From Carboxylicivirga linearis (lineage in GTDB: Bacteria > Bacteroidota > Bacteroidia > Bacteroidales > Marinilabiliaceae): a stretch of 36,639 nucleotides of DNA. The notes under the pieces are model-generated. The model was not told the origin of the DNA. It worked only from the letters and a program-made list of their open reading frames with translations, and did not search any database. Made by a program: the position numbers and the translations under genes. How positions within the stretch are numbered: the stretch's first letter is position 1; each line of letters starts with the position of its first letter. The stretch covers positions 1 to 36,639 of the forward strand of contig NZ_JAGUCO010000033.1 in the NCBI RefSeq assembly GCF_018271995.1, given 5' to 3'. Below, in pieces: positions 4,206 to 35,436 of the stretch.

Positions 4206-4333
4206 GAGAAAGAAAGCTAACACTTAAAATTTCATGTAAACTTTGTAAATAATGTAAATCAATAGTTTTATATGATTAATATTCAATATCATATAGATTT
4301 ACTTCACTATTGATATCAAGTAAATATATTTAC
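4206..4333 (+). repeat. GTAAA-triplet element, copy 1
   Basis: GTAAA boxes start at 4236, 4245 and 4254, exactly 9 bp apart. An inverted box (TTTAC) starts at 4298, 44 bp after the third, and another GTAAA starts 22 bp later at 4320. The whole block aligns without gaps to 19323-19447 at an offset of 15,117 bp, including a 24-bp identical core around 4229-4252. The geometry resembles iteron or multi-site protein-binding arrays. Whether it is an attachment site, an origin-like site or an operator cannot be decided from sequence alone. Confidence 0.7.
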
Positions 4334-4427
4334 CTAACATCTAATTCTTCTTACGTTTCACCAAACATATCATGTGGTAGAAAGAAACTATGAATCCTTG
4401 GGTTTTACGTATTGTGAGCTTTCTGAA

Positions 4428-4455
4428 TGAGATACTCCTAAAGCGGAATATCTCA
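4428..4455. other. Hairpin in GH97 3' flank, decayed copy
   Basis: TGAGATA (4428-4434) pairs with TATCTCA (4449-4455); after a C-A mismatch TCC pairs with GGA. It is the counterpart of the hairpin at 7235-7261 and keeps its shape, including the C-A mismatch, while the stem bases differ in a compensatory way. It lies just 3' of the GH97 remnant on the minus strand. Confidence 0.5.
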
Positions 4456-4493
4456 AACTGTATCTTATTAGTATTATTTACAAATTAGTTCGT

Positions 4494-4655
4494 TCATTTT
4501 GTCACAATTACACCACCGTTAGGTTGAATTGTCAAATTCATCGAACCACTATTTTTAATTTTTGTTTCAGAAAATTATGGTTCCAATTTCTTATTGTCAG
4601 AGTATAGTTTCACATCTATTCCTGCCATCATCGGAAGATTAACACTTAATTTCGA
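4494..4655 (-). pseudogene. 3' remnant of a second GH97 gene
   Basis: The last ~54 codons of a GH97 gene are recognisable on the minus strand and match the end of the intact gene at 7321-7480. Shared peptides include DVKLYSDNKK and SGSMNLTIQPNGGVIVT. A TAA at 4575-4577 replaces the Gln codon of the intact gene (P-Q-F-S), so the fragment could not encode a functional C-terminus. Homology fades above about 4655, and the rest of the gene is absent. Similarity continues downstream on the minus strand into the 3' flank to about 4420. The order repeat A, GTAAA element, GH97 3' end reads like the joint of a former tandem duplication. Confidence 0.8.
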
Positions 4656-4729
4656 AGTAGTAAGCTAGTTTTTTGGTAAAATAAATGTAAAAAAATAAAC
4701 CGGTTATGGTTATAACGAACAGGAAACAC

Positions 4730-4808
4730 GCACAAAATATACCCATATAGTATCTGTATTTAATACAATAACACCAAAAATTGTGTATTTAAACGATATA
4801 TTTTGTGC
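4730..4808. promoter_or_regulatory. 12-bp inverted repeat upstream of the AraC gene
   Basis: GCACAAAATATA at 4730-4741 is repeated in perfect inverse orientation at 4797-4808 with a 55-bp spacer, about 100 bp before the AraC start. Widely spaced inverted sites fit binding by a dimeric regulator with DNA looping, possibly the AraC protein itself. This is inference. The rest of 4656-4907 holds only AT-rich DNA and the -7-like box. Confidence 0.4.
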
Positions 4809-4848
4809 ACTTCACGGATTAATCGTTCACAACAATTGCTGCTAATCG

Positions 4849-4856
4849 TATATTTG
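4849..4856 (+). promoter_or_regulatory. -7 promoter box of the AraC gene
   Basis: TATATTTG fits the Bacteroidota sigma-70 -7 consensus TAnnTTTG and lies 51 bases before the AraC start codon. A clear TTG at the usual -33 distance is not obvious, so an activator may be needed. Confidence 0.5.
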
Positions 4857-4907
4857 CTTTAATTTAAAAGAGAAAAGATTCTTCGTATAGAATAACTAAA
4901 ATCAAAG

Positions 4908-5681
4908 ATGAGATATACTATTTTAAATCCACCACTAGAATTAAAAGACTTCGTTAGTCATTTTTGGATAAGCTCAACAGAAAGGAATAATAAGAGTAGA
5001 AATACGACCGAAAACACCACAGCATGTAGTTTAGCAAATATTATTATTGGATTTAAAGGAAGTGAAGAAAATCCATCTCCTGCATTTACATTATTCCAGG
5101 GACAAACTTCTTTTCCAAAAGAAATACAGATTTCCAAAAATGGCTTCTTTAAAATATTTGGGATTGCAATTTACCCGCACACCATTTATCAATTATTCAA
5201 CATATTAGCATCCGAAGTAAACAATCAATCAATTCCGATTTCTTCTTTTTGGAGTACACAAGAAAATCTATTAAGTGAGATGATCGCAAATTCTCTTGTT
5301 ACCCCAAAGTGTATTAATATTCTCTCAAATTATTTACATACCCTGCTATTGAATACCAAGGATAAAGATCAAATAGTTATTAACGCTGCTAAACAAATAA
5401 GACAAATTAATGGCAACTTGAATATCGAAAAATTATCTCGTGAATTTTGTCTTTCACAAAAGCAATTTTCAAGAAGATTCAAAAAACACATAGGATTTAC
5501 ACCAAAATTATATGCCAGAATTGTCCGTTTTGAATCCGTTTTTTATAACATTTTGAAATATTCAAATTTCACACAGGCTGCTTATGCTAGTGGGTATTAT
5601 GACCAATCTCATTTTATTCAGGATTTTAGAGTTTTTACAGGTTATAGTCCGAATAAGTTTTTTGCACTAAGCAATTCGTAA
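4908..5681 (+). CDS. AraC-family transcription regulator (DUF6597-type N-terminus)
   Basis: This 257-residue protein has an N-terminal domain beginning L-N-P-P-L-E-L-K-D-F-V-S-x-F-W, as in DUF6597-containing AraC proteins. The C-terminal AraC DNA-binding domain spans about residues 160-255: a first HTH in LNIEKLSREFCLSQKQFSRR and the second in FTQAAYASGYYDQSHFIQDF, followed by the GYSP signature. It lies 81 bases upstream of the TIM-barrel lipoprotein gene on the same strand. The natural inference is that it controls that gene, and possibly the convergent GH97 gene. The inverted repeat at 4730-4808 is a candidate site. The inducer is unknown. Confidence 0.85.
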   Translation: MRYTILNPPLELKDFVSHFWISSTERNNKSRNTTENTTACSLANIIIGFKGSEENPSPAFTLFQGQTSFPKEIQISKNGFFKIFGIAIYPHTIYQLFNILASEVNNQSIPISSFWSTQENLLSEMIANSLVTPKCINILSNYLHTLLLNTKDKDQIVINAAKQIRQINGNLNIEKLSREFCLSQKQFSRRFKKHIGFTPKLYARIVRFESVFYNILKYSNFTQAAYASGYYDQSHFIQDFRVFTGYSPNKFFALSNS

Positions 5682-5762
5682 AAAATAGGATGTCCATTTT
5701 TTACAATTTTCCTACAATATAGACTCACATCTTTGTTCTAAAAAAAATAAGATATATCAAAG

Positions 5763-6962
5763 ATGAAAACATTAAGATTCGTGAAAATTCACCGGTGCTA
5801 CCTATCGGCAATTTTTGTACTACTATTTACTTCTTGTTCAGCAAATCAGAAGTCTAAGGAAAAAACATCCACTCAAGTTCAGAAAACAAATAACCTTAAA
5901 TATCGAGGGGTAGTATATGATGTAGGATTACAGTTTAATCCGGGAAGTTATTCCGTAGAAACGTTTAATCCTGATTTAGTAAAATACGACATGTCTATTA
6001 TTGCTAATAAACTGAATGCAAATACAGTACGTGTCGAGGGGGAAGATATTTCCAGATTAGTAAAAGCAACAGAAATAGCGCATCGTGCAGGATTAAAAGT
6101 ATTTTTTAACCCATGGAAGATGGGAGCAAATGCAGAAGAAACCATAGCTTATATGAAAGATGCATCTATTGCTGCCGAAAAACTAAGACTTAAAGGTATC
6201 GATTTAGTTTTTGTTGCCGGGTGCGAATATTCACTGTTCAGCAAGGGCGTTTTTCAAGGTGAAACTTTAAATGACCGACTTGCATATATGATTAAAGCTG
6301 GAACTACCCCGGACTATCCTCAAGGGAAAAACCCTGTATTTATTGCAGCTTATGAGAAATTAAATTCTATACTCTCTGATATTTGTAAAGAAGTACGTTC
6401 TCAATTTAAAGGTTCTGTAACCTACTCTTCAGGAACATGGGAGAATATAGATTGGGACTTATTTGATATCATCGGTGTCGATTATTATCGTAATGGAGAA
6501 TCAGAAGAAGAATATATTGCTGGCTTGGATCGATACAAGTCCTCCAAACCGTTATTCGTTATGGAAGTTGGAAGTTGTACTTATGAAGGTGCTGCACAAA
6601 GAGGAGGTGGTGGTTTTATGATCCTACAAGGCATGAATCCTGATGGGACAGGAATATACGAAGGAGGTAAAATACCTGTGCGCAGCGAAAAGGAACAAGC
6701 CGACTATATCGAACATCAAATTAATGCTCTGCAGAAAGCGGATGTGGATGGCGTATTTATTTATGTATTTGCTTTTCCGATTATGCCATTTAGCGAAGAA
6801 AAGGGAAAAGACATGGATATGACTTCTTATTCGTTGGTTAAATCTTTTTCGAAACAAGACTCTCGTTCTCAAAAAATTCCAAACTGGGAACCCAAAGAAG
6901 CATATAAACGTTTATCTGAAGTATACAGTAGAATGTCAAAAACAAAGGAATATGATTATTAG
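5763..6962 (+). CDS. TIM-barrel hydrolase-like lipoprotein (family sometimes annotated abortive infection protein)
   Basis: This 399-residue protein has a type II signal peptide: basic N-terminus, hydrophobic core and lipobox L-F-T-S-C near residue 25. It is therefore an envelope lipoprotein. The body opens with YRGVVYDVGLQF and YDMSIIANKLNANTVRVEGE, a pattern I associate with TIM-barrel proteins labelled abortive phage infection protein in other phyla. Candidate catalytic acids are Glu155 (in AGCEYS) and Glu268 (in FVMEVGS), placed like the acid/base and nucleophile of clan A glycosidases; an FNPWKMG segment resembles a substrate-binding loop. Context with AraC and GH97 favours glycoside hydrolysis over phage defence. 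The substrate is unknown. Confidence 0.6.
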   Translation: MKTLRFVKIHRCYLSAIFVLLFTSCSANQKSKEKTSTQVQKTNNLKYRGVVYDVGLQFNPGSYSVETFNPDLVKYDMSIIANKLNANTVRVEGEDISRLVKATEIAHRAGLKVFFNPWKMGANAEETIAYMKDASIAAEKLRLKGIDLVFVAGCEYSLFSKGVFQGETLNDRLAYMIKAGTTPDYPQGKNPVFIAAYEKLNSILSDICKEVRSQFKGSVTYSSGTWENIDWDLFDIIGVDYYRNGESEEEYIAGLDRYKSSKPLFVMEVGSCTYEGAAQRGGGGFMILQGMNPDGTGIYEGGKIPVRSEKEQADYIEHQINALQKADVDGVFIYVFAFPIMPFSEEKGKDMDMTSYSLVKSFSKQDSRSQKIPNWEPKEAYKRLSEVYSRMSKTKEYDY

Positions 6963-7065
6963 GAATTTTAATTCAATAGAATTAAAAACAGACAGGCGTA
7001 TTATGGAAAAACTTTTTAATATCAGAGAGTATTATTGATGCACTATACTATTTATGCATGAATAC

Positions 7066-7097
7066 AAAAATGGTGATTCAAAGAATCGCCATTTTTT
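7066..7097 (+). terminator. Rho-independent terminator after the TIM-barrel gene
   Basis: AAATGGTGATTC pairs with GAATCGCCATTT (one G-T wobble) around a 3-base AAA loop and runs into a seven-T tract. It lies about 105 bp after the stop codon. The rest of 6963-7320 holds only the hairpin at 7235-7261 and AT-rich DNA. Confidence 0.85.
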
Positions 7098-7234
7098 TGT
7101 GATTTTACATTCGGAATATTTATAATAAATTAATATTAAAGTATTCATATTTTAAATTCTGCTGATGTAAAAACTATACACAAATTCGAATAATACCAAT
7201 TGTATTTTTAAATGAGAGCCATAGTTTCTGAATA

Positions 7235-7261
7235 AGCTACTCCTTTGAAAAAGGAATAGCT
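7235..7261. other. Hairpin in GH97 3' flank, intact copy
   Basis: AGCTA (7235-7239) pairs with TAGCT (7257-7261) and TCCTT (7241-7245) with AAGGA (7251-7255), separated by a C-A mismatch. Compared with the copy at 4428-4455, a stem pair has changed on both sides (AGCTA/TAGCT versus AGATA/TATCT), so pairing is conserved. It lies ~60 bp downstream of the GH97 stop on the minus strand and may end or stabilise that transcript, although no strong T-tract follows. Confidence 0.5.
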
Positions 7262-7320
7262 CATACTGTATCTTAGTGGTTTCATTTATGTAAGATGGTA
7301 TTATTTACAAACTAGTTCAT

Positions 7321-9264
7321 TCATTCGGTCACAATTACTCCACCGTTAGGTTGAATTGTCAAATTCATCGAACCACTATTTCTGATTTTTATTTTAGAAA
7401 ATTGTGGTTCCGATTTCTTATTGTCAGAGTATAGTTTCACATCTTTACCAGCCAACATCGGAAGTTTAACATTTAACTTAATTGCTTCTTTTTGTGCATT
7501 CACACCAACAACATACCATTGCTCTTTATGACGACGTGCTATAACACAGTATTTACCCGGATAACCATCAATGAAAACAGTTTGATCCCATGTAGTTGGT
7601 ACGTTTTTCATAAAATCAATCTCAAATGCAGGAACATCTGTTAAGTTGTTGGGTGCAATGCCAAACATTTGCACTGGGGTTTGATATAAAACTGCCGTAG
7701 CTAGCTGAAGGATGTCAGATGTTTTTCTTGTTGTCCCTCCGTCATTTGTTCTGTTATGCCGTTTATTTAATAATACTGGTCCAAATTCCATACTCCCAAC
7801 CGTATTCCTGATGAAAGGATGCAAACATGCATTATAAGCTTCCATATCATCAAAATGCTGATTGAATATTAAATTTTCAGAAGCTAAAACCGCTTCACTA
7901 CCAATGTAATTCGGATACATACGTTCCCATCCACGTGGCAATGTACATCCATGAAAAATGATCATTAATCCATACTCATTGGCATCGGCCAAGATATCTT
8001 CATACAACTTCATGGTTTCCTGTTTATCACCTCCAAAGAAGTCAACCTTTAGACCTTTCACACCTAAACTCTGTAACCACTTCATTTCTTTTTTACGGGC
8101 AATGGAGTTATCCATTTTATTTCTTGGTCCTTGTGGAGCATTATTCCAATAGCCATTTGAGTTATACCATAAGAACACATCTATTCCTTTTGAATGAGCA
8201 TATTTTATTAGTTCCGGCATTTTGTCATAACCAACCTGAGTATCCCAAAGAGCATCCATCAAGATATATTCGTATCCCATTTCAGCGGCCAAATCAATGT
8301 AGGTTACCTGGTCATCGTAATTCATGCTGTTATCCTGCCACATAATCCAGCTCCAGGTTCCTCGACCATATTTATATTCCTGAGACGGTTCATATAAAGG
8401 CTCTACCAAATCAAAAGGAATAGTTGTTTCAACGATTGGTTCCAAATTATTAGATATGGTAATGGTACGCCATGGTGTTGAACCCGGTAGTGAAATCACA
8501 GGAGTTGTGCTTCCGTAACCATTGTTTTCCCCTTCTTGAGGAAATGCAATAGAATAGATTCCATCCTTTGTGCCATCGCTTAAATGAGATGCGCAATATT
8601 GACTGGTTACACCTGTTTCAGAAATCAGTACCCAACCTTTTTCTCCAACATGAAAAAGCGAAGGAAAGGTATATCCTTGTCCGTATTTTGATGGAGTGGA
8701 AAGAGGTTCGTCAGGAACATATTCTTCTTCATAACTGGGTTTTGTACGTTTCCATCCCATTCCAGGTGTAGCCTGAGGAGATAAAAATGTGGTTGTTTCA
8801 TTTGGCAGATTGAATCCGGAAATCTCTTTTTCTATAACACAGGAAGCTGTTTCTCCAAATTGAGGTAGATTATATCTAAAACCAATATCATTGTTGCTAA
8901 TCCTGAAAACAACTTCTATTTGCTGTTTCTCTTTATTGTTGAGTGTTATGGTTAACTCATTGGCTTCATAATTTATGGTAGATTGTTTAATTCTATCTTG
9001 TTTATACTTTTTTTCTATTGTATTATTTTCTGTTGATAGAATTGACAAATCTGTGCTAAAATCTCCTACATTGGTGATTAACCCAAGAGGTGAATCTTCA
9101 AGCATTACATTGTTATTATCATACAGTACAATGTAAGAAATTTTTCCATCTGTAAGTTTAAAAGTTAAGGCTAGTTTGCCATCAGGACTACTTAGTGATA
9201 TTTCTTGTGCAAATGTGATTGTTGTGATTATTAGCAAGTAGCAAAACATTAGTTTTCTTTTCAT
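7321..9264 (-). CDS. GH97 glycoside hydrolase, probable retaining alpha-galactosidase-type
   Basis: The start at 9264 is preferred: MKRKLMFCYLL begins a type I signal peptide ending near FAQE, while the in-frame Met at 9333 only adds an unlikely 23-residue lead. The mature protein has the three-part GH97 layout: N-terminal beta-supersandwich (SSPDGKLALTFKL to about residue 290), a (beta/alpha)8 barrel (WSWIMWQDNSMNYDDQ, LMDALWD, KVDFFGGDKQ, FHGCTLPRGWERMYPN) and a C-terminal beta domain ending GGVIVTE. The Asp in KVDFFGG matches the nucleophile position of retaining GH97 members, and the inverting-type Glu in the region after PRGWERxYPN is not evident; this is inference. It converges on the TIM-barrel gene. 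A decayed paralogue end lies at 4494-4655. Confidence 0.85.
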   Translation of the reverse strand: MKRKLMFCYLLIITTITFAQEISLSSPDGKLALTFKLTDGKISYIVLYDNNNVMLEDSPLGLITNVGDFSTDLSILSTENNTIEKKYKQDRIKQSTINYEANELTITLNNKEKQQIEVVFRISNNDIGFRYNLPQFGETASCVIEKEISGFNLPNETTTFLSPQATPGMGWKRTKPSYEEEYVPDEPLSTPSKYGQGYTFPSLFHVGEKGWVLISETGVTSQYCASHLSDGTKDGIYSIAFPQEGENNGYGSTTPVISLPGSTPWRTITISNNLEPIVETTIPFDLVEPLYEPSQEYKYGRGTWSWIMWQDNSMNYDDQVTYIDLAAEMGYEYILMDALWDTQVGYDKMPELIKYAHSKGIDVFLWYNSNGYWNNAPQGPRNKMDNSIARKKEMKWLQSLGVKGLKVDFFGGDKQETMKLYEDILADANEYGLMIIFHGCTLPRGWERMYPNYIGSEAVLASENLIFNQHFDDMEAYNACLHPFIRNTVGSMEFGPVLLNKRHNRTNDGGTTRKTSDILQLATAVLYQTPVQMFGIAPNNLTDVPAFEIDFMKNVPTTWDQTVFIDGYPGKYCVIARRHKEQWYVVGVNAQKEAIKLNVKLPMLAGKDVKLYSDNKKSEPQFSKIKIRNSGSMNLTIQPNGGVIVTE

Positions 9265-9381
9265 TTTAGTTTTTATGGATTTTAATATTGTGAAATTAAT
9301 AAAGGTTAAATATACTATTTTGAATTCTACCAATACTTATGCTTTGTATGTACTCCCTTTACTTTTGGTAACAAGTGGCTG

Positions 9382-9515
9382 TAAATCAAAGAAAACGAAG
9401 AGGTTATAAACACGATAAGCCTCTTTAGAGGCTTAATTTTAAGTGTTATGTGTAATTTTTAGGCACAATCGTAATTATTATACCTTTTGGTGAAGCTCAA
9501 TAAAGATAGAAATTC
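9382..9515. repeat. ~135-bp direct repeat, right copy (repeat A')
   Basis: This is the counterpart of 4058-4196 in the same orientation, with small indels. After its end at AGAAATTC the left copy continues within 10-20 bp into the GTAAA-triplet element. Here the next such element lies 9.8 kb away, with the whole restriction locus in between. Only a weak CATGTAA/GTAAAT trace follows directly at 9514-9535. Confidence 0.75.
9417..9434. terminator. Hairpin inside repeat A' (possible hsdR terminator)
   Basis: AAGCCTCT (9417-9424) pairs with AGAGGCTT (9427-9434) with a 2-base loop, extended by a flanking T-A pair. On the minus strand it is 145 bases past the hsdR stop. The T-rich run (AATTTT) is on the plus-strand side, so it would work best for plus transcripts. 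Confidence 0.4.
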
Positions 9516-9579: not shown

Positions 9580-12471
9580 TCAACTTCGTGAAATACCACT
9601 TATAAATGTATCAACGAAATCAATAATCTTTTCGGTGATTCTTTCTGAAATGGTTTTCCGTTCCTTCAAGGATGGTTTCTTTTTCATCATACCAATAATA
9701 TCATCTCGTAACGGCTTTTTCTCGGTAAACATATAGTTTCCGATTACCTCCTGTAACATTTCTGCATCCAGATTCTCTTCTTCACTAAGTTTTTCAATGG
9801 CAACAATTCTTTCTTTGCTCCAGTAGTTTTCAAATTCTTCAGGTATATCTTCAGAATCTTTAATTGAAGGTAAATTTTCCTGGATAAATCGCTCGATTAA
9901 TTCACGTTTACTACGCATACGAGCATCTCCGGTCATTAAATCAAGAATAGCTTTTTTCTGTTTTTCCTGCTCTTCTTCTGTTGAATCTTTAAGTTTAGCC
10001 AGAAGTTTTAAAATATATGCAACGTTAATTTCATCACGGTGAATTAACTCTAATTCAAAATCAATATCACCTAGTATAGAAACCTTTTCTTTTTGGTGTG
10101 TTGATTTTGCTTTATCGTATAAGTCAAGATATTTGCTTTTATAATCCTCAAAACCTTGCTCTTCCATTGATAAATCATCAAAAGTAAACTCAGTGAATGT
10201 AACAAGTACATTTCTTAAACGCATCAACTCACGGAATGCTTTTATAAACTCAAGCTCCTGTTCTTCATCAATCAAATCGTTTACGCTATCAACGGTTGGG
10301 GCTATTTTTAATAACTCTTCAAATGCCTGGTTGAATTTGGCAACATACTCTTCGTATGGCTGCATTATAATTTCATCCTTAGCATTGATGTTTGAAAATA
10401 AAGAAATTGCTTTGTCGGTAGCACCTTTTAAATTTCTAAAGCAAACAATGTTACCTTGTGATTTTAACTCATTTAAAATGCGGTTCGTTCTGGAATAGGC
10501 TTGAATTAAACCGTGATATTTCAAATTTTTATCTACATATAAGGTATTTAACGTTTTGCTATCGAAACCAGTTAAAAACATATTTACCACCAGTAATATA
10601 TCAATCTGCTTGTGTTTTACTCGCTTAGCAACATCATTATAGTAATTATAAAAGCTTTTACTGTCTTTTGTAGTGAAATTCGTACCAAACTCCTTATTAT
10701 AGTTTCCTATAAACTCTTCAAGATAGTCTCTTGAATGTTGAGTATTATATGCAGCTTGTGGTTCAGCTGCTATATTCATTACTTGGTCAGACTCAAAAGC
10801 AAACTCTTCATCTATAAAATTGCCTACAGCATCTTTGTCATCTTCATTGGCCTGATAAGAAAAGATTGTTGCTACTTTTAGATTATGAAGCCCTTGTTCT
10901 TTCTTTTGTTGAAATAACTTATAGTATTCAACTACGGGACTAAAACCTGTTTTGGGGTCGATACTTGATACAGCAAGAATACTTGTAAACTCTTTATTAT
11001 GAGTTTTTCTATTATGATTTGCAATAATGTAATCCACTATATTGTTAAGCCGAATTGGAGCATTCATTACCTCTGCTTCGTCAATAGCTTCAACCTCAAT
11101 ATCTAAAATATTATCTTTCTTTTTGAAAGTGCTGATATACTCAACTGAAAATTTTAGAACATTCTCGTCTCTAATGGCATCGGTAATTACATACTGATGC
11201 AGCTTTTTCTCAAACAACATTTTAGTTGTCCGTTTCCCAAATTCATTAGTCCCTGCATTTTCTTCGAAAATAGGTGTGCCGGTGAAACCAAACATTTGGC
11301 ATTTAGTAAAGAAATTCTTAATGTCATCGTGTGTTTTACCGAATTGAGAACGGTGACACTCATCAAAAATGAAAACAATACGCTTGTCGCTTTGAGTTTC
11401 CATTTGAGCCAAATACCTTTTCTTGCTAATGGCGGTGTTTAGCTTCTGAATTGTGGTTACAATCAGTTTGTTATCACCTGTCATCTGCTTTACCAGGTTG
11501 TTGGTGTTGTTTGTTCCATCAATACTCCCTTTGCTAAATGCATTAAACTCTTTGGTGGTTTGGTAGTCGAGGTCTTTACGGTCAACCACAAACACAACCT
11601 TGTGTACTTTTGGATAGTTTGTAAGTATTTGAGCTGTTTTAAACGATGTAAGCGTTTTACCGGAACCTGTTGTATGCCATATGTAGCCAAACTTCCTGGT
11701 TGTTTCAACTCGTTCAACAATGGCTTCTACTGCATAAAACTGATAAGGGCGTAACACCATTAATATCTTGTCCGATTCATGAATTACAATATATTTTGTA
11801 ATCATCTTTGAGATATGGCAAGGCTCTAAGAAAACATTGGTGAAATCAACAAGTTGCGTAATGAGTTTATTATTTACATCACTCCAATAAAATGTTTGTT
11901 TAAATGACCTGGCTTTTACCGGACTATTAGCATAATACTTTGTATTAACCCCGTTGCTGATTACAAAAATCTGAATAAATTGAAACAAGCCATGGCCAGC
12001 CCAATATGAGTGTCTTTCATAACGATTGGTTTGATTGAAAGCTTCCTTTAATTCAAGTCCCCTGCGCTTTAATTCAATCTGAACCAAAGGCAAACCATTT
12101 ATTAGAATTGTAACATCGTAACGATTCTTATAATTTCCCTCAATGGTTACTTGTTGTGTAACCTGGAATTGATTTTGACACCAATGAATTTGATTGATTA
12201 ACTCTATCGTTTTATGCTCGCCATTATCGTTGATGTAGGGAACCCGGTCTCTTAGAATTTTAGCTCTTTCAAAGATATTCCCTTTGTTAATGAAGTTCAG
12301 AATTTGTTTAAAATCGCCATCAGAAAGTTTAATTTTATTATGAATCTCTAACTGTGATTTCAGGTTTGTCAATAAATCACTTTCATCATTAATAACAATA
12401 TTTTTATATCCTAACTTTTGTAACTGTGCAACAAGGTTATTTTCTAGTATCTGTTCAGGTTGAGTAGACAT
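9580..12471 (-). CDS. hsdR: Type I restriction enzyme R subunit
   Basis: HsdR is the translocating and cleaving subunit of a type I restriction-modification complex. The start at 12471 (MSTQPEQ) is chosen over the in-frame Met ten residues upstream, giving 963 residues. The N-terminal nuclease has RYDVTILINGLPLVQIELK (Asp119, Glu133, Lys135: the PD-(D/E)xK pattern). The motor domain has Walker A HTTGSGKT (about 266-273), Walker B DECHRS (370-375) and GFTGTPIF. Later helicase motifs include FLTGFDSKTLNTLYVDK and AYSRTNR. The C-terminal ~300 residues are helical, for assembly with M and S. The length is normal for EcoR124-like enzymes and no interruption is seen. It is last in the minus-strand order, 99 bases after the recombinase gene. 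Confidence 0.95.
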   Translation of the reverse strand: MSTQPEQILENNLVAQLQKLGYKNIVINDESDLLTNLKSQLEIHNKIKLSDGDFKQILNFINKGNIFERAKILRDRVPYINDNGEHKTIELINQIHWCQNQFQVTQQVTIEGNYKNRYDVTILINGLPLVQIELKRRGLELKEAFNQTNRYERHSYWAGHGLFQFIQIFVISNGVNTKYYANSPVKARSFKQTFYWSDVNNKLITQLVDFTNVFLEPCHISKMITKYIVIHESDKILMVLRPYQFYAVEAIVERVETTRKFGYIWHTTGSGKTLTSFKTAQILTNYPKVHKVVFVVDRKDLDYQTTKEFNAFSKGSIDGTNNTNNLVKQMTGDNKLIVTTIQKLNTAISKKRYLAQMETQSDKRIVFIFDECHRSQFGKTHDDIKNFFTKCQMFGFTGTPIFEENAGTNEFGKRTTKMLFEKKLHQYVITDAIRDENVLKFSVEYISTFKKKDNILDIEVEAIDEAEVMNAPIRLNNIVDYIIANHNRKTHNKEFTSILAVSSIDPKTGFSPVVEYYKLFQQKKEQGLHNLKVATIFSYQANEDDKDAVGNFIDEEFAFESDQVMNIAAEPQAAYNTQHSRDYLEEFIGNYNKEFGTNFTTKDSKSFYNYYNDVAKRVKHKQIDILLVVNMFLTGFDSKTLNTLYVDKNLKYHGLIQAYSRTNRILNELKSQGNIVCFRNLKGATDKAISLFSNINAKDEIIMQPYEEYVAKFNQAFEELLKIAPTVDSVNDLIDEEQELEFIKAFRELMRLRNVLVTFTEFTFDDLSMEEQGFEDYKSKYLDLYDKAKSTHQKEKVSILGDIDFELELIHRDEINVAYILKLLAKLKDSTEEEQEKQKKAILDLMTGDARMRSKRELIERFIQENLPSIKDSEDIPEEFENYWSKERIVAIEKLSEEENLDAEMLQEVIGNYMFTEKKPLRDDIIGMMKKKPSLKERKTISERITEKIIDFVDTFISGISRS

Positions 12472-12570
12472 ATTTCGTTTAGTTCTATAGCCAAATGTCA
12501 AAAATAGCTATAACTTATAAGAAATATGTATCCTAATTGCTTTTTTGTTATTATCAAGGTTTTAACCTAA

Positions 12571-13503: not shown

Positions 13504-13561
13504 TTTTTAAGATTAAAAAGCGCAAAGGAAACTATTAGAGCATTTTATATTCTTTATTCCT

Positions 13562-24398: not shown

Positions 24399-24538
24399 GC
24401 TTATGATTTTTCTATTTCATAAAATTGCATCTAATAAATTTAAGACTTTTTAAAGAGATTAAAAAAACAATATTCAGCATTGACGATTTTTAAGATGCTG
24501 TAATTTAAATAAGAACGAACGTTTAGACTGATTGATAA

Positions 24539-26062: not shown

Positions 26063-26116
26063 ATTGTTGTAACTTTTATATATTATTGTTTCCAAACATT
26101 AAAAGAAAGAGCAATA

Positions 26117-27490: not shown

Positions 27491-27551
27491 CCTTTGGTAA
27501 TGCAAAGAGCCATTCGACTTTTATAAAAGTGTTTAATTAAAATAAAATAGC

Positions 27552-28805: not shown

Positions 28806-29322
28806 ACTGATAATTACCCCCAAAACAAAGATATTCGATTTATTGGAAGCATATCCTCAGTTAGAGGATGTGCTAATAGCTGTTGCTCCACCGTTCAAAA
28901 AGTTGAAGAATCCAGTATTGCGAAAAACCATTACAAAGATTACTACTTTAAGTCAGGCATCTGTAATTGGTGGTATCAAAGTTGAAGAACTCATAAACAA
29001 GCTTCGTGCAGAAGTTGGGCAAACAGCAACCGACTCAATTGAAGCAGAAGACAGCAATTATACTACTGAAAAACCTGATTGGTTTGTTGAATCGAATATC
29101 TCTGAATCAATAGACATAAGAGAAATGCTAAATGCAGGCGAACAGCCAGTGCATGAAGTATTAGCTTTATTGAAGAAACTTGAACCAGGAAAAATATTAA
29201 AAGTAATTGCACCTTTTATTCCGGCTCCACTTATTGATAAATCACTAAGTTTGAACTATGAGCATTGGCTTGACAAAAAGGGTGAAGAAGAATTTTTCGT
29301 GTATTTCAGAAATCATTCATAA
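28798..29322 (+). CDS. DUF1858 (ScdA_N-like) plus DUF2249 protein
   Basis: This 174-residue protein has residues 1-65 as a DUF1858 domain (ITPKTKIFDLLEAYPQLEDVLIAVAPPFKKLKNP), related to the N-terminus of the iron-sulfur repair protein ScdA/RIC. Residues 100-174 look like DUF2249 (a SirA-like fold: IDIREML, HEVLALLKKLEPGKILKVI, FVYFRN). It is translationally coupled to the DUF438 gene by an eight-base overlap. In RIC the ScdA_N-type domain and hemerythrin are one protein; here the two halves are neighbouring genes, suggesting a two-protein version. Function in Fe-S repair after NO damage is inference from context. Confidence 0.75.
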   Translation: MDKLIITPKTKIFDLLEAYPQLEDVLIAVAPPFKKLKNPVLRKTITKITTLSQASVIGGIKVEELINKLRAEVGQTATDSIEAEDSNYTTEKPDWFVESNISESIDIREMLNAGEQPVHEVLALLKKLEPGKILKVIAPFIPAPLIDKSLSLNYEHWLDKKGEEEFFVYFRNHS

Positions 29323-29329
29323 CGAAAAT

Positions 29330-29857
29330 ATGAAGCAAATAATATTAACACTAGTTTGCCTGGTGTTTATTGTTCAATTGGGGCAATCTCAGGACAATAA
29401 GTTTAAACGATTAGAATTTCTATTGGGGAATTGGCATGGAACAGGTTCCGGCTTCGGTAATAATAACTCAGTCATTGAATCGAGTTTCAATTTGGTTATG
29501 GATAACAATTACATTGAAGTAAGCAATGAATCTAAATTCGAACCCACAGAAAAGAATCCGGAAGGTGAACATCATATTGACAAAGGCTTTATAAGTTTTG
29601 ATAAAACCCGAAGTGCAATTGTCTTTCGGCAATTCAACAGCGAAGGATATTATAACCAGTATGTACTGGTTGATTCCTTATCGAACGATACAACATTGGT
29701 GTTCAATACCGAATTTATCGAAAACTTTGTACCCGGAGGAAAAGCTCGCTGGATTATAAAAAAGCTCTCAGAAACGGAAATAGAAACGACATTTGATGTT
29801 TCATTTCCCAATAAGGAATACACTTGTTTTGGGACGAATAAACTTACCAAGCAATGA
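29330..29857 (+). CDS. Secreted calycin-like (DUF1579/nitrobindin-like) protein
   Basis: The start at 29330 (MKQIILTLVCLVFIVQL) is chosen because it begins a clean type I signal peptide cleaved near GQSQ; the frame is open further upstream inside the previous gene. The mature ~155 residues open with FKRLEFLLGNWHGTGSGFG, a G-x-W-x-G-x-G pattern shared by lipocalin-like, DUF1579 and nitrobindin-type beta-barrels, and continue as alternating strands. Nitrobindins bind heme and react with NO species; no distal/proximal His pair can be assigned with confidence here. It is the last gene before the Crp/Fnr gene, convergent with it. Confidence 0.55.
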   Translation: MKQIILTLVCLVFIVQLGQSQDNKFKRLEFLLGNWHGTGSGFGNNNSVIESSFNLVMDNNYIEVSNESKFEPTEKNPEGEHHIDKGFISFDKTRSAIVFRQFNSEGYYNQYVLVDSLSNDTTLVFNTEFIENFVPGGKARWIIKKLSETEIETTFDVSFPNKEYTCFGTNKLTKQ

Positions 29858-29880
29858 TTTGAAAGGCCATTGCTTGTTTT
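29849..29880 (+). terminator. Terminator between the calycin-like and Crp/Fnr genes
   Basis: AAGCAATG (29849-29856) pairs with CATTGCTT (29868-29875) across an 11-base loop and is followed by GTTTTT. The left arm overlaps the calycin-like stop codon. On the minus strand it lies just past the Crp/Fnr stop and could serve both genes. Confidence 0.6.
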
Positions 29881-30635
29881 TACTTCAACAATCCCGAAAG
29901 GGCTTTTTTATCCACAATTTTTATATTTCGTCCATCTGCTTCGATAATGCCCTCATTATGCATTTCGCGTATTACCCTTCCCAGCGATGGACGTGAAATT
30001 CCGAACATATTGGCAAGTTCACTTTGTGAGTTTTTAATTGTAAATTCCATTTTACCTTCTCGTCTAACATGTTCTAGCAGATAATTTGCAAATTTGCCTC
30101 TAATGGATTGTAAGCCCAGAAGCTTAATCTTTTTTGTGAGTTTCTGTGCCCTGTTGGATATAATATCGAGATAGTTCTTTAGCACAGTATTTTCGTTACA
30201 AAACAAGTTCATCAGGTCTTGTCTCGGTATAAACAAGATTTTGGTTTCTTCAATGGCAATCACATCAACAGGGAGTGTATTATCCTCACCAAATAAGAAT
30301 GCAGAAGCTATTGTATCAGGGGCATGAAGTTCTTCAATACGCAAAGACTTTCCCTGAAAATCCATCATTTCGCCAACAGCAGCTCCTTTAACAATTATTC
30401 TGAGGCTGTTGCATGTATCACCACTACTTGCAATCAGTTCATCTTTTTTGTATGTTTTTACCTGGTGATGGACTTTTTTAATTATCTCACCAATGGCCTC
30501 AGCCTTTAAATCTTTAAAAATATAGCTCGATTTCAGTGCATCAACATAGTTTAAAAAGCAAAAACTACATTTATCATTACAAGGCTGAATATATTTTTCA
30601 TTGAAATTATTATCCTCTGTAGCTGTACTTCCCAT
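29880..30635 (-). CDS. Crp/Fnr-family regulator, probable HcpR-like sensor of nitrosative stress
   Basis: This 251-residue protein has a cyclic-nucleotide-binding-like domain (about 40-155: KDELIASSGDTCNSLRIIVKG, then IASAFLFGE) and a C-terminal winged helix (about 170-250) with recognition helix SQSELANMFGISRPSLGRVIREM. The N-terminus carries Cys19, Cys23 and Cys26 (C-x3-C-x2-C), which could hold an Fe-S cluster as in Fnr; heme binding, as in HcpR proteins, is an alternative. It is divergent from hcp, with the perfect palindrome TGTAACATATGTTACA between them, and the same site precedes nrfH. This supports a local regulon of hcp, nrfHA and perhaps itself. The effector is not determinable from sequence. 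Confidence 0.85.
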   Translation of the reverse strand: MGSTATEDNNFNEKYIQPCNDKCSFCFLNYVDALKSSYIFKDLKAEAIGEIIKKVHHQVKTYKKDELIASSGDTCNSLRIIVKGAAVGEMMDFQGKSLRIEELHAPDTIASAFLFGEDNTLPVDVIAIEETKILFIPRQDLMNLFCNENTVLKNYLDIISNRAQKLTKKIKLLGLQSIRGKFANYLLEHVRREGKMEFTIKNSQSELANMFGISRPSLGRVIREMHNEGIIEADGRNIKIVDKKALSGLLK

Positions 30636-30688
30636 AAACTGTGACTTAGATATTTATTTTCGATAAAGTTAGAAAAAAATGCCCTTCC

Positions 30689-30704
30689 TGTAACATATGT
30701 TACA
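30689..30704. promoter_or_regulatory. Perfect palindromic operator upstream of hcp
   Basis: TGTAACATATGTTACA is a perfect 16-bp palindrome located 54 bp upstream of the Crp/Fnr gene start and 70 bp upstream of hcp. The -7-like element GAACTTTG (30726-30733) begins 21 nt after it, the same spacing as at nrfH. Class II activation of hcp and possible autorepression of the regulator are inferred. Confidence 0.75.
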
Positions 30705-30725
30705 GCTATTGCTTTCAAAATGACA

Positions 30726-30733
30726 GAACTTTG
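30726..30733 (+). promoter_or_regulatory. -7-like promoter element of hcp
   Basis: GAACTTTG keeps the TTTG half of TAnnTTTG and sits exactly 21 nt from the operator, as in nrfH. The nearby TATCGTTG at 30734-30741 is an alternative box. The weak match is consistent with dependence on an activator. Confidence 0.45.
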
Positions 30734-30773
30734 TATCGTTGATTTAGAATAAAAATTTAAAAAAGATAAGATT

Positions 30774-32417
30774 ATGAGCATGTTTTGTTACCAATGTCAG
30801 GAAGCTGCAAAAGGAGAAGGTTGTACCATCAAAGGAGTTTGTGGAAAAGAAGATTCAACAGCTAACCTACAGGATTTATTAGTGTATGTAACCAAAGGTG
30901 TATCATTGGTTACTGAAATTGCAAAGAAGAATTCTGTTGCGATTGACAAAGCCGATAAATTTGTATTTGAAGCCTTATTTGTAACTATTACCAACGCTAA
31001 TTTCGATGATAATAAAATCACCAATAAAATTATTGAAGGTATTCAGGTTCGTGATGCTTTAAAGAAAGAATTGGAAGATAAAGGTGTTGCAATTCCAAGC
31101 CTTCCTGCTAATGCTACATGGGTTGCAGAGAGTGATGAAGCAATTAAAGCTAAAAGTGAAATTGTTGGAATATTAACAGAGCAAAACGAGGATATTCGTT
31201 CATTAAAAGAGTTGTTAACCTACGGATTAAAAGGGATGGCTGCTTACGCCGAACATGCTTTTAATTTAGGTTATATTGACGAGAAAGTATTTGCATTTAT
31301 GCACAAGGCATTAGTTGCTACTACCAGAACTGACATTACTGTTGATGAATTGGTTGGCTTAACTTTGGAATGCGGTGAGTATGGGGTAAATGTAATGGCT
31401 TTATTAGACAAAGCAAATACCGAATCATACGGAAATCCTGAAATCACAAAAGTAAATATTGGTGTGCGTAATAATCCGGCAATCCTTATCAGCGGTCACG
31501 ACTTGAAAGATATGGAAGAGCTGTTAAAGCAAACCGATGGAACCGGAGTTGATGTTTATACACACAGTGAAATGTTACCCGCTCACTATTACCCCGCATT
31601 TAAAAAGTACGAACACTTTGTAGGAAACTATGGTAATGCATGGTGGAAACAAAAAGAAGAATTTGAATCATTTAACGGAGCAATCCTATTCACTACAAAC
31701 TGTATTGTTCCACCAAAGGATAGTTACAAAGACAGAGTTTACACCACAGGTGCGTCAGGCTTTGATGGTTGTACTCATATTGCTGATAGAAAAGATGGTC
31801 AACCAAAAGATTTTTCTGTAATTATTGAACACGCTAAGAAATTACCTGCTCCAACCGAGATTGAAACAGGAGAAATTGTTGGTGGATTTGCACACAACCA
31901 GGTTTTACAATTGGCCGACAAAGTAGTTGATGCTGTTAAAACAGGTGCAATCAAGAAATTCCTTGTAATGGCAGGATGTGATGGTAGAATGAAAGGACGT
32001 GAATACTATACTGATTTTGCTGACCAATTACCACAAGATACTGTTATTCTTACCGCAGGATGTGCGAAATATCGTTACAACAAATTACCATTAGGCGATA
32101 TCGGCGGTATTCCTCGTGTTTTGGATGCAGGACAATGTAATGATTCATACTCTTTGGCTGTTGTGGCTCTTAAATTGAAAGAGGTATTTGAATTGAATGA
32201 TATTAACGAACTGCCAATTGCCTATAACATTGCATGGTACGAGCAAAAGGCTGTGATTGTATTATTAGCTCTTTTACACTTAGGTGTGAAAAACATTCAC
32301 CTGGGGCCAACATTACCAGCTTTCCTTTCTCCAAATGTTGTGAATGTTTTGGTTGAGAACTTTGGAATAGCCGGAATTGGAACAGTTGAAGAAGATTTGA
32401 AGCTTCATTTGGCTTAA
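30774..32417 (+). CDS. hcp: Hybrid cluster protein (hydroxylamine reductase / NO-responsive)
   Basis: Hcp carries a hybrid 4Fe-2O-2S cluster and reduces hydroxylamine; it is also credited with NO reduction and protein nitrosylation. The 547-residue protein has the N-terminal cubane ligands C5-x2-C8-x8-C17-x5-C23, the spacing seen in Hcps of strict anaerobes (4Fe-4S), and hybrid-cluster ligand regions: [39 protein letters not shown] and [12 protein letters not shown] second start is possible two codons in. The length is normal. It is transcribed alone between the Crp/Fnr operator and a strong terminator; no hcr reductase gene is adjacent. Confidence 0.96.
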
Positions 32418-32435
32418 TATAAAACATACTCATGT

Positions 32436-32470
32436 AGAACGCTGCAAAACAGATTTGTAGCGTTCTATTT
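32436..32470 (+). terminator. Rho-independent terminator after hcp
   Basis: A 13-bp stem (32436-32448 with 32454-32466, one G-T wobble) encloses the 5-base loop ACAGA and is followed by ATTTAAAA. It lies about 20 bp past the hcp stop. Confidence 0.8.
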
Positions 32471-32486
32471 AAAAACGTAATTAGCT

Positions 32487-32819
32487 ATGATTGAAAAGAT
32501 ATTTAAAACCGCAGAAGTTTACAACCTGAAAGACATGGTTGATTATTCCGATGGCTCAACTGTAAGCAAAATTATTACACGAAATGAAAAAGGAAATCTT
32601 ACCTTGTTTGCATTTGATAAAGGACAAAACCTAAGTGAACATTCAGCTCCCTTCGATGCCATTGTCCAGGTTTTGGAAGGTTCAGGTACAATTATTATAG
32701 ATAAAAAGGAACATAAGGTGAGCGAAGGGCAATTGATTATTATGCCTGCCAACATTCCTCATGCTGTGGAAGCAACTGAAAAGTTTAAGATGTTGCTGAT
32801 AATGATTAAAGCATCCTAA
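32487..32819 (+). CDS. Small single-domain cupin
   Basis: This 110-residue beta-barrel has cupin motif 1 as NLSEHSAPFDAIVQVLEGSGTIIIDKKEHKV (HSAPFDA, with Glu in VLEGSG) and motif 2 as GQLIIMPANIPHAVEA (conserved P-x-x-x-P-H). Histidines in both motifs can bind one metal ion. Such small cupins are often found beside Hcp and other nitrosative-stress genes in anaerobes, but the substrate is unknown. It is separated from hcp by a terminator and is followed by its own hairpin at 32877-32908. Confidence 0.8.
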   Translation: MIEKIFKTAEVYNLKDMVDYSDGSTVSKIITRNEKGNLTLFAFDKGQNLSEHSAPFDAIVQVLEGSGTIIIDKKEHKVSEGQLIIMPANIPHAVEATEKFKMLLIMIKAS

Positions 32820-32876
32820 AATTAATCGTTGTGAGCATAATAAATACAAGTTCTCAAAAACTTAAACATTACTCAT

Positions 32877-32908
32877 AAACCGTTGTGAATTTCATTTTGC
32901 AGCGGTTT
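32877..32908 (+). terminator. Terminator after the cupin gene
   Basis: AAACCGTTG (32877-32885) pairs with CAGCGGTTT (32900-32908, one G-T wobble) over a 14-base loop, followed by TTGCTTAT. The stem is moderate and the T-run short. The rest of 32820-32964 is AT-rich and probably contains the promoter of the next gene, but no box matches well. Confidence 0.5.
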
Positions 32909-32964
32909 TTGCTTATAGTAAATATTAATATTTGTAAATTATAAGGCTAATTAATGTTTTTGAT

Positions 32965-34155
32965 ATGTCGGAATTCACAAATACAAAACAACAACGTATA
33001 AAAAAATTGCTTGAGGTTTCTAAACTAATTTTGGAAACAGGGAATGCTCATTCATTCATTACTGAAAACAAGGATTTTATTTCTACGGTAATACCTACTG
33101 ATTTTATAACCCTCTTTGACGAGATTATAAAGGAAGGTTATAAGATGGAAGATATAAAAGTACTGACAAATAAAGTCCTGAATATTTTCCATGTTCCTAT
33201 TCGTGATTATGTAAGAGTTGAACCAAAACCGAATTCTTTTCTTGGTGTGTTAGAACAGAATAACCATGAAATGGAATTGTTATTAAATAAAGTCCGTCCG
33301 GTTTTTAAAGAATTTGTGAAAGACTCAAGTAATTCTGATTTACAGAAAAAACTGACAGAACTCTTTACCCGTCTTGAAATTTTTGCAAAACATTATACAA
33401 TAAAGGAAAATGTTCTATTCCCAATCATAGAGGAATCATGGCAGGACTATCGCTGTTTACAGATTATGTGGTCGTTTCACGATGATATTCGCAGAAATAT
33501 CAAAGCTGTAATTACCCAATTACAGGAAGGAAACATCGAACTAAAAATTTTCAATAAATGCGTAGGCGACATATTCTTTAATATGCACGCCATAAAGTTC
33601 AGAGAAGAACGTATTCTCTTTCCTTGCATATTATCAACCATCAGCGAAAGCCAGTTAGAAAAGATGAATCGTGAAGGCTTTGAGCTGGGCTATCCTTTTA
33701 TTCAACCTAATTTAAAGATGGACAAAGAAGTAAAACCAGATTATGAAGGGAACCTTGTAAATCTTGGAACGGGTAAAGTAAGTATCGAGCAAATTAAACT
33801 CATTTTTAATCACCTTCCGGTGGATATTACTTTTGTTGATGAGAACAACAAGGTTTGCTATTTCTCAACACCGCCCAAACGAATTTTTCCTCGCACAACA
33901 GCAATTATCGGGCGTGAAGTAAGTAACTGCCATCCGCCTGAAAGTGTACATGTGGTAGAGCAGATTGTTGAATCATTTAGGAATGGTGAAAAAGACCATG
34001 CTGATTTCTGGATTAAAATGAAAGGTGAATTTATTCTTATTCAATATTTTGCTGTTCGTGATGAATCAGACAACTACAAAGGTGTTATTGAAGTCTCACA
34101 GGAAATTTCGGGCATTAAGGCTTTGGAAGGTGAAAAGCGATTATTGGATTGGTAA
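32965..34155 (+). CDS. DUF438-hemerythrin-PAS protein, paralogue 2
   Basis: This 396-residue protein has an N-terminal helical DUF438-like region (1-75), a hemerythrin-like domain (about 90-225) with a full set of likely ligands (QNNHEME, KHYTIKENVLFP, SFHDDIRR, NMHAIKFREERILFP), and a C-terminal PAS domain (about 275-390) with NCHPPESVH and FWIKMKGEFI. The domain order equals that of paralogue 1 at 27552-28805, but the di-iron ligands look complete here. Hemerythrin-like proteins bind O2 or NO, and RIC-type members repair Fe-S clusters. The CHPP-x-S-x-H motif of the PAS is kept in both paralogues. It heads a small operon with the next two genes. Confidence 0.85.
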   Translation: MSEFTNTKQQRIKKLLEVSKLILETGNAHSFITENKDFISTVIPTDFITLFDEIIKEGYKMEDIKVLTNKVLNIFHVPIRDYVRVEPKPNSFLGVLEQNNHEMELLLNKVRPVFKEFVKDSSNSDLQKKLTELFTRLEIFAKHYTIKENVLFPIIEESWQDYRCLQIMWSFHDDIRRNIKAVITQLQEGNIELKIFNKCVGDIFFNMHAIKFREERILFPCILSTISESQLEKMNREGFELGYPFIQPNLKMDKEVKPDYEGNLVNLGTGKVSIEQIKLIFNHLPVDITFVDENNKVCYFSTPPKRIFPRTTAIIGREVSNCHPPESVHVVEQIVESFRNGEKDHADFWIKMKGEFILIQYFAVRDESDNYKGVIEVSQEISGIKALEGEKRLLDW

Positions 34156-34173
34156 TCTTAAATCTTTTAAAAT

Positions 34174-34530
34174 ATGGAATTATCAAAATTAAGGCTTGAG
34201 AAGTTTAAACATATCAAGGTTGTAAATTTCCCAACTGATATTAAAATCGAACTTGATTCTACTGACATTGAAGCGGAAGTCATTATCTACTATATTGATA
34301 AGTTTGAAGATGTGAAAGCATTTGTTGAATTGAGCAACAGCTCGAATCTTCCAAAAGAAAACCGAACAATAATGATTTATAAAAAGGGACGAAAAGATGG
34401 TGTTAATCGTGACTCCATATTTATGCCATTTAAGGAGCACGTTTATAAAGGATTTAAGTTGAAAGCTCCCATGCTTTGTTCTATTTCAAAAGAATTGAGT
34501 GCTTGTGTGATGTGTAAAGAAATAGGATAA
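34174..34530 (+). CDS. Conserved small protein of unknown function
   Basis: This 118-residue soluble protein follows the DUF438 gene by 18 bases and precedes the DUF2200 gene by 3 bases. I do not recognise the family. Visible features are an acidic N-terminal half with alternating strands (IKIELDSTDIEAEVIIYYI), a basic turn (IYKKGRKDGVNRDS) and a C-terminal pair of cysteines in SACVMCKEIG plus one in PMLCSI. These could bind a metal or act in thiol chemistry. Its tight spacing with DUF438-HHE-PAS suggests a related role. Confidence 0.6.
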   Translation: MELSKLRLEKFKHIKVVNFPTDIKIELDSTDIEAEVIIYYIDKFEDVKAFVELSNSSNLPKENRTIMIYKKGRKDGVNRDSIFMPFKEHVYKGFKLKAPMLCSISKELSACVMCKEIG

Positions 34531-34533
34531 AGA

Positions 34534-34884
34534 ATGGATAATATAAAAATCTTTAAGATGCCTTTTGCCAAAGTCTATCCGCTTTATATTCAAAAAGCCG
34601 AAAGAAAAGGCAGAACCCAGAAAGAAGTGGATGAAATAATATTTTGGCTCACAGGCTATGATAAATACAGTCTATTTCAAATTTTATCGAATAATTCCGA
34701 TTTTGATACGTTCTTTAAGTATGCACCAAAAATAAATCCAAATGCCGCTAAAATTAAGGGCATTGTATGTGGTGTTCGAGTTGAAGAAATTGAGGATAAG
34801 TTAATGCAGCATATCAGGTATCTCGATAAATTGATTGACGAACTGGCAAAAGGAAAAGCAATGGAGAAAATTTTAAGGGAATGA
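34534..34884 (+). CDS. DUF2200 family protein
   Basis: This 116-residue protein matches the DUF2200 pattern: [36 protein letters not shown], then a second conserved block [45 protein letters not shown]. Short DUF2200 proteins are widespread, cytoplasmic and uncharacterised. It is the last gene of the unit that starts with the DUF438 paralogue, and a strong hairpin follows its stop. Confidence 0.85.
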
Positions 34885-34886
34885 CA

Positions 34887-34909
34887 AAAAGGAGGCTCAA
34901 CCTCCTTTT
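34887..34909. terminator. Bidirectional terminator between DUF2200 and HU genes
   Basis: AAAAGGAGG (34887-34895) pairs perfectly with CCTCCTTTT (34901-34909) over the 5-base loop CTCAA. A-rich and T-rich flanks on both sides make it effective in both directions for the convergent genes. Confidence 0.9.
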
Positions 34910-34919
34910 ATATTTTGAG

Positions 34920-35192
34920 CTAGTTAACAGCTTCATCCAAAGCCTTACCCGGCTTAAACTTAGCAACTTTCTTTGCAGCTATCTGAATTTCTTTCCCTGT
35001 TTGAGGATTTCTACCAGTGCGAGCTGAACGTTCGCTGATAGAGAAAGTACCAAACCCTATTAATTGAATGCTTTCGCCTTTAGCTAAAGCACCTTTGATT
35101 GCCTCTGTTGTTGCATTTAAAGCTTTCTCTGAATCTGCTTTTGTTAAGCCACTTGCCTCAGCAATGGCACTTACTAATTCTGATTTATTCAT
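34920..35192 (-). CDS. HU-family DNA-binding protein
   Basis: This 90-residue HU/IHF-family protein has MNKSELVSAIAEASGLTKADSEKAL at the N-terminus, the GFGTFSISERSARTGRNPQTGKEI beta-arm region with the intercalating Pro, and the KPGKALDEAVN C-terminus. It bends DNA as a dimer and assists replication, recombination and integration complexes. It lies beside the GTAAA-triplet element copy 3 and the phage-like helicase, so it may be the element's own HU; a housekeeping gene cannot be excluded. Confidence 0.95.
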   Translation of the reverse strand: MNKSELVSAIAEASGLTKADSEKALNATTEAIKGALAKGESIQLIGFGTFSISERSARTGRNPQTGKEIQIAAKKVAKFKPGKALDEAVN

Positions 35193-35344
35193 TCTTTTAA
35201 TTTTTTAGATTGAGTAAAATATTCTATGCAAGATAGCTATTTCTTCTTTACATCTGTTTAAACAGTGGTATTGAAAGGTTTTTAGTGATTATCATCACTC
35301 AATTACTTCATAATTTCAGGACAATAAACTATCAAATTTAGCAG

Positions 35345-35436
35345 TGAAGTAAATCAAGTAAATGTGAAGTAAATATCAAAATAGTTGTTAATAAACATGT
35401 TACTGTATTTGATTTACATTATTTACTTCATTTACT
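35345..35436 (-). repeat. GTAAA-triplet element, copy 3 (inverted)
   Basis: On the minus strand GTAAA boxes begin at 35435, 35426 and 35417 (9-bp steps), and the inverted box begins at 35373, 44 bp on, the same distances as in copies 1 and 2. An 18-bp block (GTAAATAATGTAAATCAA) is shared with copy 1. The far side differs: plus-strand GTAAA boxes at 35349, 35358 and 35369 make a second cluster, so the whole is nearly symmetrical. It lies in the 334-bp gap between HU and the helicase gene; nothing else is seen there except a weak stem near 35485. Confidence 0.7.

Follow-up and report, generated by a model that had tools for sequence, protein, structure and literature searches.

GTAAA arrays behind a primase-helicase gene

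The DNA analyzed here is a 36,639-nt stretch of a Carboxylicivirga linearis contig (C108; hereafter the window), taken from a genome of 6.05 Mb. The window contains three arrays of short GTAAA boxes, and the third of these lies 92 bp behind a primase-helicase gene that runs off the contig (Table 1). In each array three GTAAA boxes follow one another in 9-bp steps (0, +9 and +18) and an inverted box, TTTAC, begins at +62. Copies 1 and 2, which are offset by 15,117 bp, have in common a further GTAAA at +84, 22 bp on. Re-reading of the letters bore out the coordinates that the original prediction had given for all three copies. We hold, with good confidence, that the arrays serve as iterons to which the initiator binds at the replication origin of Bacteroidota integrative islands. 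These islands resemble Staphylococcus aureus pathogenicity islands (SaPI) and phage-inducible chromosomal islands (PICI), and some of them carry cargo between the two halves of the origin.

To determine whether the arrays exceed chance, matches were counted against shuffled sequence and a reversed pattern. With up to two mismatches allowed, the stepped triplet has three exact matches and one two-mismatch match in the window where 0.42 are expected, and none of 100 shuffles reached four. The whole genome holds six exact triplets and none of the reversed pattern. The TTTAC at +62 accompanies five of the six; the triplet on contig C88, which is without this box, was taken as chance. The exact 67-bp geometry accordingly occurs five times (three in the window, one on contig C112 and one on C119) with a reversed control of zero, and was present in 4 of 60 genomes searched, this one included. 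Loose genome matches with up to two mismatches equal the reversed control in number (105 versus 114); they therefore carry no meaning and were discarded. A search of 393 genomes from the order, allowing the full pattern up to two mismatches, gave three matches and none for the control: on C108 and C119 behind the initiator gene, and in G279 (the same place as locus L090) behind its helicase gene.

The original prediction treated the three copies as one element, which we correct to two kinds of site. Site A, represented by copy 3, has boxes at 0/9/18 and inverted boxes at 62/73/82, and was also seen on C119 and at position 5227502 of the relative G001. Site B has boxes at 0/9/18 and a single inverted box, at 62, with another forward box near position 84, and it follows a conserved stretch; its members are copies 1 and 2, C112, and positions 2216724 and 5258983 of G001. 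Copies 1 and 2 are preceded by the common sequence AACACTTAMAATTTCAT. A sixth genome site, absent from the original prediction, lies on contig C109 and is of the A kind minus one box. The spacer between the two box sets of site A in the window (35375-35411) is 78% AT.

We then examined the genes beside such sites in a one-genome-per-species collection, in which the pattern of the original prediction matched 51 times, spread over 48 stretches; the presence of GTAAA in these loci is given by construction. The full layout of three plus three boxes was present in 14 of the 51, all in records titled as members of Bacteroidota. A homologous superfamily 3 (SF3) helicase lies upstream of 12 of these 14 sites versus 1 of the 37 incomplete ones (L085; Fisher p 7e-9). 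The distance from the last aligned helicase base to the first box is -1 to 94 bp in 11 sites and 269 bp in L099, and in seven loci the helicase stop codon falls inside the first box. Regarding the two exceptions, L097 (as G003:C111) carries a different array immediately after the helicase gene, and L086 has, by eye, a degraded helicase-like tail at its end.

Matches in the viral contigs were largely set aside, as 43 of 45 are without the full layout and most look like another family. These loci (L111-L155 except L118 and L152) are mostly long T/A runs and TATA-like stretches beside GTAAA arrays, and apparently represent an unrelated family. One Candidatus Uhrbacteria genome contributed eight matching stretches (L065, L069, L070, L076, L092, L101, L106 and L108) in which GTAAATCA-type repeats stand opposite inverted copies of themselves; these are dispersed repeats.

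The proposed initiator and the boxes it may read

The full-length relative of the truncated window protein, encoded in G001, has 900 residues, is 95% identical to the window fragment and contains a CHC2 zinc finger, a TOPRIM domain and DUF927 (31.7 bits, cut-off 22.6); it matches phage DNA primases. A structure search with the predicted model of the homologue from L107 returned Cch of the staphylococcal cassette chromosome SCCmec (5dgk) as the best hit (E 3.6e-8), followed by SaPIbov1 Rep (E 1.7e-6), while the third-ranked hit reached only E 0.39. Residues 472-599 of the model align with the winged helices of the origin recognition complex (ORC). The model thus suggests that the initiator shares the overall fold of the SaPIbov1 Rep/SCCmec Cch family. 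Contigs C108 (at base 36639) and C119 (at base 1) both end within the initiator gene, in each case at codon 531 of 900, and a break of the assembly in this repeated gene is the probable cause.

To find arrays independently of the GTAAA motif, 33 stretches were scanned without naming a box; one shuffle per stretch gave no hits. The scan revealed five related elements in which A as well as B is a GTTAAC array, and one unrelated match, C113, among its 35 rows. Matching, facing halves were present in all seven pairs, comprising the five GTTAAC elements, the window and the GTAAA island of G001; the B sites of the latter two came from the pattern of the original prediction and not from the scan. GTAAA- and GTTAAC-type initiators are 67-77% identical overall and 58-60% identical at residues 811-855, where three GTAAA-type proteins keep 89-96% even though L098 is otherwise the most distant. 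Residues fixed by type number 6 of 315, 9 of 45 (residues 316-360), 12 of 405 and, in the C-terminal part, 29 of 138, and the difference between the C-terminal part and the N-terminal 315 residues is pronounced (p 3e-11). The residues that set L098 apart show the opposite trend, with 9 in the C-terminal part and 60 in the N-terminal part. As far as sequence can tell, the C-terminal domain sorts by box type, and we infer that this domain, perhaps together with the 316-360 stretch, reads the boxes.

This sorting also bears on whether the boxes form a partition centromere or a transcription-control site instead of an origin. Repeat arrays are also typical of centromeres, and by eye a ParA-like gene follows the primase in distant relatives. 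Among the 30 window proteins scanned, however, there was no ParA or ParB, and the box type tracks the initiator domain that in SaPI Rep reads the origin. We consider a centromere or control site quite unlikely. The iteron-type origin, one of several options in the original prediction, is well supported by the helicase association, the sorting of boxes with the domain and the fold match of the homologue. Its broader suggestion of a protein-binding site under selection also fits the sequence findings.

We propose the following mechanism. The island-encoded primase-helicase would bind site A behind its own gene through a C-terminal winged-helix domain, assemble on the facing box sets and melt the AT-rich spacer, and replication would start once the island is active. 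HU may help to bend site A. The full origin would be bipartite, consisting of A and an inverted partner B within approximately 300 bp. That the initiator binds, that the spacer melts and that replication follows are predictions of this model, as is the part played by HU; a separated B may still work.

Facing halves, adjacent or parted by cargo

A facing array (at least two 9-bp steps) was found no more than 320 bp beyond A at 10 of 15 sites, namely the 14 full sites and L085. Geofilum (G033/L110) and G002 show the undivided structure, in which the halves stand side by side without cargo. In six split pairs (the window, three G001 islands, G077 and G006) the halves face each other 24-35 kb apart between the same outer backbone genes, with a J-operon beyond B and the primase beyond A. 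In the window 31.2 kb separate B from A. The three G001 islands have distances of 31.5, 34.9 and 24.5 kb, of which the third runs across the ends of the record, while G077 and G006 each have 24.5 kb and G002 has 0.24 kb. All three islands with 24.5 kb (in G001, G077 and G006) carry the same cargo in differing surroundings and count once, leaving four independent cargoes. In G033, 9 kb lie between the repeat R described below and B, and B and A are adjacent; on the B side of G002 neither R nor a second J-operon was seen. What can be read from the letters is how the arrays are laid out, that they accompany the helicase gene, that the two halves have a common box type, and that both intact and split arrangements occur.

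These arrangements allow two further explanations to be weighed, both of which the original prediction had raised. If the arrays were integrase arm-type sites, B and A would be arms of an attachment site at which the intervening DNA was integrated. The fixed spacing, the facing box sets and the cargo between B and A are consistent with this, as are the L099 pair, located after a tyrosine integrase that has an arm-binding domain, and the B site of C112, which adjoins an integrase-like gene. However, the usual neighbor of the arrays is the helicase and not an integrase. Four of the five GTTAAC elements have a serine recombinase (none was seen beside that of G002) with the layout unchanged, and G033 as well as the GTAAA island of G001 have tyrosine recombinases with the same layout as the serine-recombinase elements. 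The cargo junctions have, by eye, no common core, and the same 24.5-kb cargo sits inside whole islands at different places. We therefore regard integrase arms as improbable. A reading in which B is the attachment site of the island itself was weighed seriously, since B and A bracket the cargo, and was dropped given this cargo at different places and the cargo-free pairs. Alternatively, B and A could be the terminal inverted repeats of a cargo-carrying transposon, as they face each other around cargo in the six split pairs. These pairs have identical outer backbone genes, while cargo-free elements keep both halves side by side, and no transposase was noticed beside the sites, although no systematic transposase search was made. 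Terminal repeats are the least credible of these explanations. Neither attachment-site arms nor transposition ends are supported, given the constant backbone flanks, the cargo-free halves and a cargo that moves with its whole island.

The iteron origin accounts for the position of the arrays at module borders differently. On this reading, the B1 and A halves are 31 kb apart and resemble borders because cargo lies in the linker between them. The claim that the copies delimit gene modules is true of these three sites, but the cause is cargo inside a split origin, and copy 2 is a stray half. A check set beforehand was whether DNA between copies is gained or lost among relatives, and relatives indeed have none, different or permuted DNA there. 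The 5.26-Mb region of G001 corresponds to the left part of the window (209-4325, with a gap at 2179-3362), and the homology stops at G001's own B. At 2.19-2.22 Mb, G001 has the nitrogen block, the restriction block and B in an order that is a circular permutation of the restriction block-B2-nitrogen block order of the window; this island is of the GTTAAC type and has a GTAAA-type B inside its cargo. A P. sediminum contig lacks a large part of the sugar module that stands between copies 1 and 2.

The original prediction had missed a repeat, R, which is present twice in the window (85% identity), once abutting B1 and once at a further module border. Considering the permuted blocks of G001 and the reduced sugar module of P. 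sediminum, the simplest view of copy 2 and R2 is that they are relics of another island joined to the window island. Copy 2 is best read as a half of the B kind that came from such an island and is attached to the restriction block, and a B2-type half adjoins the restriction block in G001 too. R2 is probably the relic border of another island. The J-operon with its upstream R (window 3370-4196 and relatives) has several copies per genome, and its 77-aa protein is matched in 25 of 100 related genomes.

Several observations weigh against an iteron origin of this form. Facing halves are not universal: there was no B behind A in C119, L063, L064, L086 and L097 (L075 is too short to tell), and a remnant B suspected by eye behind the A of C119 was not supported. 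The box contrast is essentially one GTAAA/GTTAAC switch seen in several relatives, and since three of the five GTTAAC elements also share cargo, the seven pairs are not independent events. GTTAAC is its own reverse complement, so that orientation there rests on flanking bases, and the GTTAAC-type spacer (70% AT) does not exceed its flanks (71-75%) in AT content. The window initiator is truncated at the contig end and its structure model was too poor for use; a Pfam scan of the fragment gave no match. Its 350-bp flank is only weakly unusual by a repeat-count score applied to 16 initiator flanks, with 19 of 1000 shuffles reaching it. No array was found in the scored flanks of Ingeline_1, Microcystis, two Porphyromonas phages and three distant primases, and the flank of phage 1H is array-like by eye but not significant in the shuffle test. 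1H belongs to a set of distant homologues comprising seven phage records and one plasmid. Within this set, laban6-1 (TCTCAA words) and Pseudomonas phi3 (GGAACA) have arrays of other boxes behind the primase, reached by 0 of 1000 shuffles each, while four other records have no array in the immediate flank of the primase.

Whether B and A remain functional partners across 24-35 kb of cargo, with initiator bound at both looping them together, is a separate and more doubtful matter, and we put it forward tentatively. If so, cargo would be carried within the origin itself, and its gain or loss would be tied to island replication. The readable link between box sequence and initiator domain, combined with split halves, makes it possible to test directly if an origin divided in this way can function. 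The layout found in the loci of 14 Bacteroidota records can also serve as a search key for replicating islands in Bacteroidota.

The genes adjoining the window sites are the J-operon and AraC genes, the DUF6088 and HPP genes, and the HU and primase genes, with no integrase gene adjacent. A tyrosine recombinase gene stands beside two oppositely oriented hsdS genes (12571-15925), and this region aligns partly inverted in G001, as expected for an invertible specificity cassette. Where the window has HU beyond the origin, C119 (L062:1784-2149) and Geofilum (G033:641161-641535, in L170) share, as judged by eye, a small zinc-ribbon-like gene.

Table 1. Coordinates of sites, repeats and genes in the window
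Feature	Position	Strand	Description
Site A (copy 3), proposed origin core	35349..35435	-	Three GTAAA (from 35435, 35426, 35417), AT-rich spacer, three inverted boxes
Site B1 (copy 1)	4206..4333	+	GTAAA 4236/4245/4254, TTTAC 4298, GTAAA 4320; faces site A at 31.2 kb
Site B2 (copy 2), stray B half	19323..19450	+	GTAAA 19353/19362/19371/19385, TTTAC 19415, GTAAA 19437
Repeat R1	4058..4196	+	Upstream region of small J-operon, has hairpin; directly left of copy 1
Repeat R2	9382..9515	+	Second R copy, between GH97 gene and hsdR
J-operon	3370..3950	-	Encodes a 78-aa protein and a 115-aa protein with weak J-domain-like matches; part of the backbone next to site B
Primase-helicase, 3' part	35527..36639	-	370 codons to contig end; CHC2-TOPRIM-DUF927; 900 aa in relatives
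HU-family DNA-binding protein	34920..35192	-	Directly beyond site A; possible accessory factor
Cargo	4340..9381		AraC-type regulator, GH113-like protein (below Pfam cut-off), GH97
Cargo	9580..19232		Type I restriction-modification with two hsdS and tyrosine recombinase; YhcG-type (DUF1016), DUF6088 genes
Cargo	19506..34884		Cytochrome c552, NapC/NirT-type cytochrome, cytochrome c assembly, prismane (hybrid-cluster) protein, hemerythrin/PAS, Crp-type regulator, others

Comparison with known replicons

While the original prediction recognized no known element, the closest kind is the replicon of SaPI, PICI and staphylococcal cassette chromosomes (SCC). As excerpted in PMC6092414, the SaPI/PICI origin lies directly 3' of rep and has two iteron sets flanking an AT-rich region, and excerpts of PMC7581432 describe how SaPI Rep uses its C-terminal domain to read an iteron origin lying immediately 3' of the rep gene. 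Site A of the window and 12 of the 14 full sites are likewise directly 3' of the initiator gene, with two box sets and an AT-rich spacer. The islands differ from SaPI/PICI in their Bacteroidota host, in boxes that read GTAAA or GTTAAC and recur every 9 bp, in a second half, B, that faces the first and, in some, in 24-35 kb of cargo between the halves. The PICI gene order is excision function, primase and rep (sometimes fused), and ori. The GTAAA island of G001, which lies among phage-like genes (the left-hand ones were scanned), has the order integrases, xis-like gene, a 370-aa protein, primase and A; G033 is similar, and the window is cut by the contig end. A PICI is further defined by induction, interference and packaging that depend on a phage. 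Parts of the surroundings of the island are phage-like, but we do not call it a PICI.

SCCmec Cch is a DUF927 helicase related to SaPIbov1 Rep, according to the excerpted text of PMC7581432 and PMC10061031. The islands are like SCCmec in their DUF927 helicase, in the best fold match of the homologue and in the serine recombinase of four GTTAAC islands, but differ in gene content, and the published iteron work, in its excerpted form, concerns Cch2, which belongs to another helicase family. In a limited set of searches over open-licence literature, none of the titles and abstract starts listed showed a split origin or a Bacteroidota origin of this layout. In satellite P4, ori and crr are two separated sites with the same repeats, read by a primase-helicase. 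The present sites differ from these in distance, repeat sequence and host, and the islands show both adjacent and split states. An iteron origin of the SaPI/PICI/SCC type accompanied by its helicase is thus an already known kind, while the host group, the two-half layout, the cargo between the halves and the correlation between boxes and their reader are new as far as the literature was searched.

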